Assembly (NCBI GenBank): GCA_031278055.1
Contig: JAITLD010000041.1
Location: forward strand, 1-10,313
Reading direction: 5' to 3'
Length of the DNA stretch: 10,313 nt
Source: Rickettsiales bacterium
GTDB taxonomy: Bacteria; Pseudomonadota; Alphaproteobacteria; Rs-D84
Positions 3,514-10,313 of this stretch are shown here, piece by piece. The translations under genes were made by a program, and so were the position numbers. The notes beneath the pieces were generated by a model. That model was not told the origin of the DNA and did no database searches. It saw only the letters and a list, made by a program, of their open reading frames with translations. How positions within the stretch are numbered: the stretch's first letter is position 1; every line of letters begins with the position of its first letter.

Positions 3514-3522
3514 TGGTACAAT
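3514..3522 (+). promoter_or_regulatory. possible extended -10 promoter for the second Cys-rich gene
   Basis: TGG followed by TACAAT (3517-3522) fits an extended -10 element, with only poor -35 candidates upstream. A start near 3529 would produce a leader of about 200 bases that holds the folded element at 3573-3725. Confidence 0.35.
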
Positions 3523-3572
3523 CAGCATGTATCCGCAATGGATGCCGAAGCATTGAAAACTTCGCTATACGG

Positions 3573-3725
3573 GGTGCCGGATATGCACCGAAAATATATC
3601 CCTGTTCACGCGGGGAGCCGCTGGTTATAAAAGAGGGCTTTGCCCAAAGGCCAGCGGGATCAATCTGTATAGTGATTTTTCAATCTCCCCGCACCATTTT
3701 CGCGGAACAGTAAGGATGGTATTTT
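3573..3725 (+). promoter_or_regulatory. highly structured leader predicted to sequester the Shine-Dalgarno of the downstream gene
   Basis: Nested perfect complementarities can be read directly. The outer helix is AAAATA 3591-3596 with TATTTT 3720-3725, ATCC 3598-3601 with GGAT 3714-3717, and CTGTTC 3602-3607 with GAACAG 3705-3710. The next is GCGGGGAG 3610-3617 with CTCCCCGC 3685-3692. Inside it are CCGCTGG 3618-3624 with CCAGCGG 3651-3657, a GGGC/GCCC hairpin (3635-3638 with 3642-3645) and a possible ATCA/TGAT stem (3659-3662 with 3673-3676). A separate hairpin GGTGC/GCACC (3573-3577 with 3585-3589) precedes it. The GGAT arm is part of AAGGATGG at 3712-3719, the ribosome-binding site for the ATG at 3729, so the fold would mask translation. 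A riboswitch, thermometer, protein-binding leader or a trans-acting small RNA are all possible. I recognise no known family. Confidence 0.5.
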
Positions 3726-3728
3726 GTC

Positions 3729-5024
3729 ATGCGAAAATGGCCTTTTGTATTATTTCTGATGCTTCTATCCGCCAAAGTATCTGCGGTCGAATGGGATGCC
3801 CAAGACGGATGTCCGTTAGGAGAATGGAAAGGCTCGCTTGGCATGTCTGAATGCAAAAGATGTGGGCGTAACGGCATAGGAATTCTCGCCAAGAAAAGAG
3901 AAGATGAAAATTCCCTTCAATTTAGATGCGTTAATGATTGCAGCGCACTTAAAGGCGGCACGAACGATACATCTGGAGTCTGCAGATGCCCAGCGAACGA
4001 ATACGCTTACTTCTCGGATTTTTCATCAATGGGAGTTTTTTGCAGCCGGACGGCTAACCCCGACGACTCCGAATGGGCTAAAAAAGGAAAATCAGAATGC
4101 GACGCCAAAGATGGCGAATACTTTTCTCATTTATGGAATAAATGCTGTCCAAAGGATGCCATAGGTGTAATAAACACTATATGTATATGCGACAAAAATA
4201 AAAAAGAAGAAAATTTCAAATGTGTTGATGACGCCGAAGCAATCGCCGCTGAAAAAGCGGCGGCAACGGAAGAAACCAAAAGATTAAATGTTTCCCATGC
4301 ACCCCCGATTGAATCAATACCAGAATCTGCGCCGCCAGAAACATCGTCTGTTTCCAACGGCTCACTTGACACCAAAACAGAAGATACCAAAGCGACCAGG
4401 GCGCCGCCCGACACGAAAGAGATAAGCCGATGTTCCGGAACAAAAGACATTATGAGGTCTAGCGGCACGCAGGCGGCTACAAGAGAATATGCGCTTGCTC
4501 AATGCGAAAAAGAGGGCTTTGAAGACGTAATATTCAGCGGATGCAAACCCAAGAACAACTTCGCATTCATAGCAAACTACAGATGCTTTTGCAAAAAAGA
4601 TCCAAAACCAGAACAGCCACCGTATCCGAGATCATGTCCGGAAGCGCGAGCGACCAAAGAAACCGAAAAATTAAACGTTTCTCCCGCAACCCCGAGTAAA
4701 TCAATACCAGAATCTGCGTCGCCAGAAACATCGTCTGTTTCCAACGGCTCACTTGACGCCAAAACAGAAGATACCCAGACAGAACAAACACCGAAGCAAT
4801 CAATGGATATATCGACTGCAATAGAACAAGAAAAAACCGATACAAAACAGACAGAAGAAAAACCAGAACAACCGACAACCGAATCAAATATCGCAGATAA
4901 AAACTCTGACAGTAATAAAATCGAAACGGAACAAGAACGCGAAGTCATGCGCGAGTTTGAGGAGTTAACCCGCCAATTCAATGAAAAAATCCGAGAACTT
5001 AATAAATCGAATAGGGAAAAATAA
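3729..5024 (+). CDS. exported Cys-rich protein with internal duplication and disordered linkers (431 aa)
   Basis: The start at 3729 gives a classical signal peptide: MRKWP, a hydrophobic core, then VSA at 17-19 as a likely cleavage site. AAGGATGG at 3712-3719 is the ribosome-binding site. Residues 28-165 hold 14 Cys in close-set groups (such as CKRC 42-45, CRC 85-87, CC 139-140, CIC 152-154), and residues 235-303 hold six more, giving 20 in all, which fits disulfide-rich modules outside the cytoplasm. Two Ser/Thr/Glu/Pro-rich linkers (about 179-220 and 308-349) are copies of each other. Residues 350-400 are polar low-complexity sequence rich in Thr, Glu, Lys and Gln, and 398-431 is a charged helix likely to form a coiled coil. 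No catalytic domain or anchor is recognised, so the function is unknown; a surface, adhesion-like or periplasmic structural role is a guess. It converges on recG with a gap of only 9 bases. Confidence 0.7.
   Translation: MRKWPFVLFLMLLSAKVSAVEWDAQDGCPLGEWKGSLGMSECKRCGRNGIGILAKKREDENSLQFRCVNDCSALKGGTNDTSGVCRCPANEYAYFSDFSSMGVFCSRTANPDDSEWAKKGKSECDAKDGEYFSHLWNKCCPKDAIGVINTICICDKNKKEENFKCVDDAEAIAAEKAAATEETKRLNVSHAPPIESIPESAPPETSSVSNGSLDTKTEDTKATRAPPDTKEISRCSGTKDIMRSSGTQAATREYALAQCEKEGFEDVIFSGCKPKNNFAFIANYRCFCKKDPKPEQPPYPRSCPEARATKETEKLNVSPATPSKSIPESASPETSSVSNGSLDAKTEDTQTEQTPKQSMDISTAIEQEKTDTKQTEEKPEQPTTESNIADKNSDSNKIETEQEREVMREFEELTRQFNEKIRELNKSNREK
4312..4388 (+). repeat. in-gene duplicated segment, copy 1
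   Basis: These 77 bases recur at 4699-4775 with two differences that I can see. At protein level the duplicated unit extends to about 42 residues (179-220), with more divergence at its N-terminal side. The 387-base spacing is a multiple of three, so the frame is kept. Confidence 0.9.
4699..4775 (+). repeat. in-gene duplicated segment, copy 2
   Basis: This is the second copy of the segment at 4312-4388 and encodes part of residues 308-349. The near identity, including at third codon positions, points to a recent duplication or to gene conversion between the copies. Confidence 0.9.
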
Positions 5025-9049: not shown

Positions 9050-9766
9050 ATGTCCGGACATTCCAAATGGAGCACTATAAAACATAAAAAGGGACTTGCC
9101 GACGCCGCGCGATCAAGCCAGTTCACAAAACTGGCGCGGGAAATAACGATGGCGGCGAAACTCGGCGATTCGAATCCGGAAAACAACGCGCGATTGCGCC
9201 TTGCAATACTGAACGCGCGGAAGGCATCCATGCCGAACGACAACATAAAGCGCGCGATAGATAAATCCCAAGGCAATAATTCTGAAAATTACGAATCCGC
9301 CCGATACGAGGGGTATGGGCCCGGCGCAACTCCGATTATAGTCGAGGCCATGACCGACAACCCGCGCCGCACCGCGCCGGAAATAAAAAACCTGTTCGCC
9401 AAAGGCGGCGGAAACCTTGGAGAAATGGGGTCTGTTGTTTTTATGTTTCATCAATTGGGCGCGATTTATTATCCGTTGTCAGCAGCCAAGAATCCAGATG
9501 AAATGATGGAAATTATAATGAACGCGGAGGCGGACGATTTGGAAACGACGGATGACGGATATATTGTTTATGCCAAGCCCGAAACATTCGTCGTCGTTCA
9601 AAAAGCATTGGCCGACAAATTGGGCGAACCCGAAGAGGCGGCGATAGAATGGCTGCCGAATAATCCGATAGAATTGGACGACGAGAAAGCCGCGCAATTG
9701 GAAAATCTTGTGAACGCGCTGGACGAAAACGACGACGTGCAAAAAGTGTTCACAGGAGCGGCATGA
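9050..9766 (+). CDS. yebC: YebC/TACO1 family protein
   Basis: The 238-residue product starts with the family hallmark MSGHSKWSTIKHKKG at the ATG at 9050, which has AAGG at 9038-9041. The frame is open upstream to 8981, but that would overlap ruvA and add an unlike segment. Further family blocks are PNDNIKRAIDK, YEGYGPGATPIIVEAMTDNPRRTAPEIKNLF and GGNLGEMGSVVFMF. YebC proteins were long annotated as transcription regulators; later work on the family, including mitochondrial TACO1, supports a ribosome-associated role in translating proline-rich stretches. The protein is cytoplasmic. In many proteobacteria yebC precedes ruvC-ruvA-ruvB; here it is divergent from ruvA and followed by repeats. The stop codon is only 9 bases before a palindrome that could cap the 3' end of the mRNA. 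Confidence 0.96.
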   Translation: MSGHSKWSTIKHKKGLADAARSSQFTKLAREITMAAKLGDSNPENNARLRLAILNARKASMPNDNIKRAIDKSQGNNSENYESARYEGYGPGATPIIVEAMTDNPRRTAPEIKNLFAKGGGNLGEMGSVVFMFHQLGAIYYPLSAAKNPDEMMEIIMNAEADDLETTDDGYIVYAKPETFVVVQKALADKLGEPEEAAIEWLPNNPIELDDEKAAQLENLVNALDENDDVQKVFTGAA

Positions 9767-9772
9767 TTTTTT

Positions 9773-9883
9773 GTCATTCCCGCGTAGGCGGGAATAGCAG
9801 TGCCTAATTGATTTATAATTAATAATTTAAGAACTCATAACTCTGAACTCTCAAGCCCTATTCCCGCCTACGCGGGAATGACA
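9773..9883. repeat. paired-palindrome (BIME/MITE-like) element, copy 1
   Basis: The 111-base element has GTC plus palindrome ATTCCCGC/GCGGGAAT (9776-9795, loop GTAG), AGCAGTGC, an AT-rich core, AACTCTGAACTCT (9839-9851), CAAGCCCT, and a second palindrome in opposite orientation (9860-9879) ending in GACA. Its ends GTCATTCCC and GGGAATGAC are inverted repeats. It begins 6 bases after the yebC stop. It encodes nothing, and a second copy lies at 10118-10224. Confidence 0.85.
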
Positions 9884-9902
9884 AACAACTTTGTTGTTTG
9901 TC
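9880..9902. repeat. perfect 10-bp hairpin at the junction of repeat and tandem array
   Basis: GACAAACAAC (9880-9889), loop TTT, GTTGTTTGTC (9893-9902), then a run of A. It is a strong stem that is AT-rich except at its ends. On the plus strand it lacks a following T-run, so it is not an obvious terminator. Confidence 0.8.
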
Positions 9903-10030
9903 AAAAAAAAAACGTTACCCAGTTTTGTTCTATACACTTTTTTTACAAAAAACGTCAGTTGTTTGTTAAAAAAAACCGCTACTAAGTTTTGTTCCACGCA
10001 CTTTTTTACAAAACCCGCCAGGGTTTTGTC
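9893..10030. repeat. 65-nt tandem repeat, two imperfect units plus a partial
   Basis: Units begin at 9893 and 9958, both with GTTGTTTGT then a run of A, TAC, AGTTTTGTTC, CACTTTTTT, ACAAAA and CAG, and a truncated third begins near 10023. The period is 65 bases. The unit junctions form hairpins: an imperfect one at about 9945-9966 and a perfect ACAAAACCC/GGGTTTTGT stem with a GCCA loop at 10008-10029. Compensating differences between units keep the stems paired. Confidence 0.75.
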
Positions 10031-10110
10031 ATTCCCGCGTAGGCGGGAATAGGGTCTATTTTATTGAAACATGGAAACTGACAAGAGAGTTCAGAATTCA
10101 GAGTTATGAG
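10028..10110. repeat. diverged, inverted half-element of the palindrome family
   Basis: GTC plus palindrome ATTCCCGC/GCGGGAAT (10031-10050) is followed by AGGG, about 30 unrelated bases, and then GAGAGTTCAG...CAGAGTTATGAG (10085-10110), the reverse complement of the AACTCTGAACTCTC block with a short insertion. It reads as an inverted copy of the half-unit seen at 9839-9883, interrupted in the middle. Confidence 0.65.
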
Positions 10111-10117
10111 TTTTTTT

Positions 10118-10224
10118 GTCATTCCCGCGTAGACGGGAATAGCAGTGCTTAATTAGATTGATAATTAACAATTTTTTTTAACTCTGAACTCTCAAGCCCT
10201 ATTCCCTCCTTCGCGGGAATGACA
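10118..10224. repeat. paired-palindrome (BIME/MITE-like) element, copy 2
   Basis: This 107-base element has the same order as copy 1: GTC, palindrome 10121-10140, AGCAGTGC, AT-rich core, AACTCTGAACTCT (10180-10192), CAAGCCCT, second palindrome 10201-10220, GACA. Both palindromes carry mismatches (AGAC in the first, CTCC in the second), so it is more decayed than copy 1. Confidence 0.85.
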
Positions 10225-10313
10225 GAAACTGTTATGGAAGAGAGAGCACCGCGGCGCGGGAGCACGAGTTGTTCGAGGCGCCCTGGACGCAGTACGCGCA
10301 ATTGTACGCACAG
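10221..10313 (+). other. GC-rich window edge, possible start or fragment of another gene
   Basis: After the last repeat the sequence becomes markedly GC-rich. The plus-strand frame ending at the window edge is open from 10188 and translates as RESTAAREHELFEAPW and then TQYAQLYAQ, which looks coding-like. It has no in-frame ATG. A different frame has an ATG at 10219 but gives an Arg-rich product of doubtful quality. I cannot assign a gene, a strand or a product. Confidence 0.2.

Follow-up and report, generated by a model that had tools for sequence, protein, structure and literature searches.

An earlier note on the window (the whole 10,313-nucleotide stretch analysed here) had read an unrecognised structured leader at positions 3573 to 3725, masking the ribosome-binding site of a gene for a cysteine-rich, exported-looking protein. 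What kind of RNA is this leader, and how might it act on the gene behind it? In comparison with its relatives, the leader resembles a phage immunity switch that has been given a new role. We consider it probable that it is a cis-acting leader of the sRNA-Xcc1 lineage, derived from the C4/CI type of phage immunity RNA with its mimic, antisense core and target. Core homology, mimic:core pairing, a rival strand and two kinds of output were established by comparison, at the level of sequence. All features described below are on the forward strand.

Extent and layout of the leader

The region 3573 to 3760 was predicted to fold better than shuffled sequences (MFE -63, z -2.89; 2/200 shuffles were equally good). 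Its relatives were compared as a set of 115 distinct copies, which includes the window and four copies from G055, a member of a different family in the same class, and which takes in only part of the weaker matches from a DNA search and an RF02221 search of 60 genomes. Eleven copies including the window were labelled window-type, an assignment made by eye with the sequences already known.

Placed side by side, the copies followed a common plan: a -10 box, a short hairpin (P0), a second hairpin (Pa) with the strand PK1-5' in its loop, the strand PK2-5', a variable hairpin, a C-rich strand (strand 1), the core (P1 around P2 and P3), an output hairpin and the gene. In the window, the -10-like box is TACAAT (3517-3522), and the 5' end of the leader was placed near 3529 because a TATAAT-like box stands at a near-constant upstream distance in the relatives. 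A TAnnnT motif with at least five of six matches to TATAAT was found in 9 of the 11 window-type copies (2.8 in shuffled segments), always 32-37 nt ahead of PK1-5', and in 56 of 68 other copies (24.6 in shuffled segments), mostly 38-43 nt ahead of it. A start downstream of about 3610, which the earlier note had regarded as fatal to its leader, is not what the box predicts. P0 (ATCC/GGAT, 3531-3543) and Pa (CGAAG/CTTCG, 3546-3564) were read by eye in the copies, those for P0 being aligned, and the variable hairpin (GGTGC/GCACC, 3573-3589) was taken from the predicted fold. Since 3552-3570 carries both partner strands of the core and the start probably lies near 3529, the span 3573-3725 is too short. 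The structured leader is real and conserved, and its actual extent is approximately 3529 to 3740. It also proved, as had been proposed, more elaborate than a simple hairpin and located in cis ahead of the exported-looking protein.

A conserved core related to sRNA-Xcc1

The core (3608-3694) is sRNA-Xcc1-like and consists of P1 (3610-3617 paired with 3685-3692) around two hairpins. P2 (3618-3657) contains the CCGCTGG helix (3618-3626/3649-3657), a conserved internal loop and an inner helix (3635-3638/3642-3645), and includes invariant unpaired bases; P3 (3659-3676, helix 3659-3662/3673-3676) carries the strand PK2-3' (3667-3672) in its loop. A covariance model built from 49 relatives, with the window held out, matched this core with 69.5 bits (E 6.6e-15). 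The alignment comprised 49 of the 73 core references, and the structure was obtained by folding one of these sequences and then counted across all 49. Standard pairs filled 93.3% of the pair cells, compared with 86.2% in shuffled alignments and 37-53% in slid ones, over which taking the structure from one of the 49 favours it. Two-sided changes were found at 17 of the 26 pairs (9.6 shuffled). P1, the CCGCTGG helix and P3, which had been read from the window letters alone, are therefore present, with corresponding helices that covary in the 49 relatives; the covariation in homologues that the earlier note had called for was found for the core helices and, in 114 copies, for the mimic:core pairing. 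RNAalifold run on a MAFFT alignment yielded 6 pairs, with hairpin lengths varying, and the resulting model (R1) was discarded. The idea that P1 plus ACCA is tRNA-like or a split tmRNA was also dropped, as the copies are dispersed ahead of different genes.

At the window leader, Rfam models gave chance-level matches up to E 10; RF02221 (sRNA-Xcc1) had no match there within that limit, and its gathering score, 53 bits, was thus not reached. The statement that the leader matches nothing known thus holds for the Rfam score of the window copy but not for the core, which, judged by covariance models run in both directions, is homologous to sRNA-Xcc1. RF02221 matched relatives below its cut-off at 5/14 loci, and at 4/4 in a smaller search; at E 1, it matched 35 of 60 relative genomes, only one of them above the cut-off, and one of 14 controls, below the cut-off. 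In the reverse test, on 18 loci taken from a set of 88 in phages or plasmids, the model of the order matched 12 (E 2.4e-9 to 1.7e-4) and left 6 unmatched. P1 around two hairpins and the conserved P2 loop are common to sRNA-Xcc1 and the leaders, as is the upstream mimic, which is present in the phage copies. In contrast, the window copy falls below the Rfam thresholds, and its mimic and core form one leader with neither a terminator between them nor a target copy at the Shine-Dalgarno (SD) sequence.

sRNA-Xcc1 in phages and its likeness to C4/CI

A BLAST search with the RF02221 consensus retrieved 16 phage and 4 plasmid records, and eight fetched phage or plasmid loci all scored 69.7-86.1 bits with RF02221. 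The RF02221-type pattern was present at no fewer than 120 loci in viral contigs. Eighty of these loci gave 76 occurrences, of which 63 were distinct and 54 were kept (9 were without a clear P1 or ORF). In these 54 viral copies, the core was complementary to the upstream mimic as well as to the SD region of the gene that follows (four permutation tests, all 0/20,000), and a terminator-like hairpin lay between the upstream RNA and the core in 28 (3.2 expected). The downstream genes belonged mostly to antirepressor families: among 52 viral ORFs, where one ORF may count several times, matches were found to P22_AR_C (12), KilA-N (11), AntA (10), Rha (6), ORF6N (6), P22_AR_N (5) and Bro-N (5). The combination of sRNA-Xcc1 core, upstream mimic RNA, mimic copy at the SD and antirepressor-type gene was observed at L122-L126 and in viral contigs L130-L209. 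The core pattern of the order itself gave 0 matches in viral contigs.

According to passages of PMC4825925, the CI RNA of phage P4 pairs with an upstream (seqA) and a downstream (seqC) region. Since the mimic-core-target plan of the viral copies is the P4 plan, sRNA-Xcc1 would appear to be C4/CI-like in phages, yet it is not a C4 member by covariance score. C4, isrK and c4-a1b1 models gave no match at the window leader or at eight phage or plasmid loci (L122-L129). In the positive control, phage P4, isrK was detected ahead of C4, both above cut-off (C4 74.9 bits), and c4-a1b1 just below; the model of the order scored only 11.1 bits on P4 C4. Shared with C4 (RF01695) or P4 CI, accompanied by isrK (RF01394) and c4-a1b1 (RF03163), are the arrangement of mimic, core and gene and the use of two short complementary regions; as with isrK and c4-a1b1, the upstream strands are complementary to the core at two places (114 copies of the order, 54 viral copies). 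Serving as the C4/CI-like partner of antirepressor leaders is the likely function of sRNA-Xcc1 in phages. No link between sRNA-Xcc1 and antirepressors was found in the literature searched, a scope outside which the key 2011 sRNA-Xcc1 paper lies, and in the portions of that literature seen, sRNA-Xcc1 and C4 antisense RNA were named jointly just in an annotation table.

Pairing of the core with upstream mimic strands

In the window, the mimic strand PK1-5' (ATTGAAAA, 3552-3559) is complementary to PK1-3' (TTTTCAAT, 3677-3684), and PK2-5' (CTATAC, 3565-3570) to PK2-3' in the P3 loop. Upstream regions from the same locus and from other loci were scored against the P3 arm and loop and against the strand preceding P1-3', using 114 of the 115 distinct copies (L063 was dropped). 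The own partner scored 20.8 versus 17.0 for other loci at PK2 and 16.8 versus 13.8 at PK1, both with 0/20,000 permutations as high. This effect is an average one, the own partner being the single best of all loci in just 18 (PK2) and 6 (PK1) of the 114 copies. The two best upstream strands lay 8-16 nt apart, as expected, in 77/114 copies; in the remaining 37/114 the automatic picks were without the expected spacing, and some were wrong (e.g. PK1 of L007).

Among the 77 copies with canonical spacing, to which the privacy and state-energy comparisons refer, the mimic:core pairs were private to their copies: own pairs scored 21.24, pairs with other copies in the same genome 10.71 and pairs with other genomes 10.53. 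Only 5 of 196 same-genome cross pairs scored 18 or more. There was no sign of selection for this privacy in the 77 copies (3991/5000 label shuffles were as low).

In the order, the P3 loop did not match the downstream start region (own 14.69, other 14.66; 9219/20,000 permutations as high; 80 of the 115 copies), and therefore the phage target copy is gone for this loop, in contrast to the two-region SD target of the 54 viral copies. The strand formed by PK1-3' and P1-3' matched the SD region in 70 non-window-type copies (15.17 versus 13.37, 0/20,000), whereas no match was seen in 10 window-type copies (11.08 versus 11.85). Window-type copies thus differ further from C4 in having no SD-region target for either strand.

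Alternative states and output hairpins

Strand 1 (3599-3605) is a rival partner of P1-5', pairing with 3610-3616 in the predicted fold. It covaried with P1-5' across the 115 copies (own 16.53 versus other 13.94, 0/20,000), which gives P1-5' a second conserved partner besides P1-3'. No covariation was detected in the 11 window-type copies (16.95 versus 17.04), a test that is uninformative because P1 is nearly invariant there; strand 1 of these copies fitted far better than shuffled letters (11.11). The signal was weaker in viral copies than in the order (11.94 versus 11.12, 15/20,000).

The mimic:core state was predicted to lie below the P1 state in 76 of the 77 canonical-spacing copies, by a median of 10.3 kcal/mol with pseudoknots ignored. 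For the window (3544-3745), the free fold was the mimic:core state at -75.9 kcal/mol, compared with -67.0 kcal/mol when P1 was forced; these energies leave out pseudoknots, and P1 and both mimic helices might coexist. The SD is AAGGATGG (3712-3719). The outermost helix of the earlier note, in which 3591-3596 and 3598-3601 mask the SD by pairing with 3714-3725, can be written, but the corresponding fold reaches only -65.0 versus -75.9 kcal/mol, a cost of 10.9 kcal/mol. Strand 1 (3599-3605) has a better partner in P1-5', and this pairing is conserved among the copies. The predicted ensemble showed an SD core that was mostly unpaired (probability 0.87-1.00 at 3714-3721, approximately 0.55 at 3712-3713), and a region from 3730 onward, beginning at the second base of the start codon, that was closed by 3694-3704/3730-3740. 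An alternative fold with an open ribosome-binding site, raised beforehand as an objection, accordingly exists for the named helix: the better predicted fold opens the SD, while the start codon is partly closed.

The output hairpin (3693-3740) can be drawn in two ways, as 3694-3704/3730-3740 over codons 1-4 or as 3693-3700/3713-3720 over the SD. A hairpin over the SD or start was found in 10 of the 11 window-type copies, the window included, and was weak in L009, a count made without a shuffled control. In the other copies, a terminator-like hairpin followed P1 directly in 77/103 (2.1 expected from mononucleotide shuffles) and was undetected after the core in 26/103; a further one lay ahead of the core, in the place of the variable hairpin, in 48/103 (4.9 expected), these counts covering 103 of the 104 non-window-type copies. 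In window-type copies a terminator was found after the core in 1/11 and between mimic and core in 0/11.

A temperature sensor of simple design, or a hairpin that does no more than mask the SD, in line with the earlier note, would agree with the hairpin over the start region. It is nevertheless highly improbable, given the 10.9 kcal/mol penalty of the helix in question, the terminators that end 77/103 other copies and a long-range covariation that a thermometer does not require. Sensing of a metabolite is somewhat less remote but still improbable: a ligand bound in the conserved P2 internal loop would steer P1 against strand 1. The invariant unpaired bases of P2 fit this proposal, and a bistable P1 with a terminator or SD-type output is the usual riboswitch layout; both the rival strand and such outputs exist here, although P1 and the output hairpins can coexist. 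Against it, the homologues precede phage antirepressors, with mimic and target pairing private to each copy, and the downstream genes of the order have no common pathway by Pfam or NCBIfam. For ligand and temperature sensing alike, the comparative evidence points instead to a phage C4/CI-type mimic:antisense module.

Within such a module, the 5' part (approximately 3529-3572) would mimic the target, and two sites of the core would pair with it. State I would consist of the mimic:core duplex, with strand 1 on P1-5'; in state II, the core would be folded on itself through P1, P2 and P3. The balance between the states may set how readily the adjoining hairpin allows ribosomes to initiate on the gene for the secreted protein. 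Core RNA from the same locus, possibly in trans, co-transcriptional timing or an unseen factor could shift this balance. Because P1 is compatible with the start hairpin in the predicted folds, the link from state to output is a proposed one, and either state may be ON.

A different, and in our view unlikely, arrangement is that the core serves chiefly as a small RNA of its own, like sRNA-Xcc1 and C4, which is released by processing at P1 and acts in trans on other messages, with the downstream gene expressed by read-through. Many copies of the order do have terminators flanking the core. The RNA mapped for sRNA-Xcc1 is 88 nt long (as given in part of PMC2996969), and C4-like RNAs of Acinetobacter baumannii seem to be processed at the P1 5' end (excerpts of PMC5320573). 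However, the near absence of terminators from window-type copies, noted above, points to one message with the gene, and the frequency of secreted-looking proteins behind the leaders (see below) fits a leader tied to its gene. We therefore keep to the cis-leader reading, in which a trans-capable immunity RNA became a cis leader in the order, because the P3-loop target match was lost, strand 1 is stronger and window-type copies have no mimic-core terminator. A phage precedent is the IsrK-anrP leader of Gifsy-1, for which sections of PMC4825925 describe a leader RNA that adopts two structures, acts in cis and in trans, and is extended by read-through into the message of an antirepressor. The window leader differs in that isrK finds no match and the gene encodes a secreted protein.

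Genes behind the leaders

The gene behind the window leader (3729-5024) encodes 431 amino acids with 20 Cys, as the earlier note had reported, and its N-terminus resembles a signal peptide by eye and by a rough rule. No relatives of this protein were found in the other 59 genomes of the 60-genome search or in phages, and the leader is therefore far better conserved than its gene. The protein contains a near-duplicate internal segment (approximately 4312-4386 and 4698-4775; SIPESAPPETSSVSNGSLD... and SIPESASPETSSVSNGSLD...).

A second, divergent copy of the module (91-225) lies in the window ahead of another Cys-rich ORF (254-751), which also has a signal-peptide-like start. Its pairings were read by eye (TAGAAA 91-96/TTTCTA 191-196, TGAGTG 102-107/CACTCA 181-186, a hairpin CCACCA/TGGTGG and a core at 139-207). 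RF02221 scored 30.3 bits at 140-214, below cut-off, and the model of the order 25.0 bits (E 5.6e-4), with filters off only.

Across the order, the leader is common to unrelated genes. By the same rough rule, signal-like N-termini were present in 63/103 ORFs behind leaders and in 9/86 control ORFs from the same loci. For 96 of the 103 ORFs, Pfam and NCBIfam models identified PMP repeats (4), Stealth (2), glycosyltransferase 8 (2), PAP2/LpxE (2), HTH (2), CDGSH (2), YadA (1) and others, and neither collection revealed a common pathway. Three leaders (L068, L098 and L118) precede similar CDGSH-type iron-sulphur ORFs, two matched by Pfam and the third recognised by eye, which is unusual company for surface genes.

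We put forward, tentatively and as rather less probable than the cis-leader reading itself, that throughout an order of alphaproteobacteria with small genomes a phage immunity RNA has become a genome-wide set of private RNA locks on surface and secreted-protein genes. Each gene would have its own mimic:core pair, unlike those of its neighbours, and could be switched singly without protein regulators. The findings join the role of sRNA-Xcc1, the spread of phage-type RNAs into chromosomes and the control of surface proteins in a little-known order, subjects unlinked in the literature examined. They also suggest a reason for the presence of sRNA-Xcc1 ahead of symE in Xanthomonas cassettes, namely that the RNA would silence a toxin-like gene.

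Distribution in the order and beyond

A DNA search with 3565-3735 gave matches in 21/60 related genomes (own included), often more than one each, and a second match in the own genome. Of the 142 genomes sampled from the order, 127 matched the core model, among them 108 of 119 with good quality, and each positive genome had from 1 to at least 31 copies. RF02221 as built, with 1/60 relative genomes above cut-off versus 127/142 for the new model, thus misses most such leaders. In a class-wide sample, 12/190 genomes matched, three of the family of the window and the other nine with 1-3 matches each; as the model was built on copies from the order, it could have overlooked further members. The core pattern was also present in 24 named-record stretches, assigned to uncultured Alphaproteobacteria, proteobacterium or Rickettsiales bacterium, among which two isolates were labelled goat omasum and horse faeces.

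The high copy number has a parallel in the Group 1 sRNAs of A. baumannii, phage-type antisense RNAs of which a single bacterial genome contains 21 copies in the account excerpted from PMC5320573. Those RNAs belong to the C4 family and are described as processed sRNAs, whereas the leaders of the order are of sRNA-Xcc1 type and each precedes a gene of its own. The many copies per genome and the leader's occurrence ahead of unrelated genes might also suggest a mobile DNA repeat, such as a cassette recombination site, whose folds act as DNA, and sRNA-Xcc1 is known from integron cassettes (parts of PMC12444791). This explanation is barely credible in view of the near-fixed promoter box, the terminators and the locus-specific long-range pairing; moreover, the integron integrase model TIGR02249 had 0 matches above cut-off in the own genome (83% complete), where only weak matches were found, as in all 14 controls.

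Further copies in the own genome were located at G000:C17:636-712, G000:C35:3482-3572, G000:C48:338-422 and G000:C78:6637-6720, each with its own mimic where read. Divergent pairs of leaders approximately 0.9 kb apart were observed in three genomes of the order (G088:C2:161718-162803, G092:C4:79642-80728 and G121:C42:3226-4313). Elsewhere in the window, 9763-9904 and 10005-10233 gave many weak sub-threshold Rfam matches to microRNAs and sRNAs on both strands, and these segments are probably long inverted repeats or low-complexity sequence.
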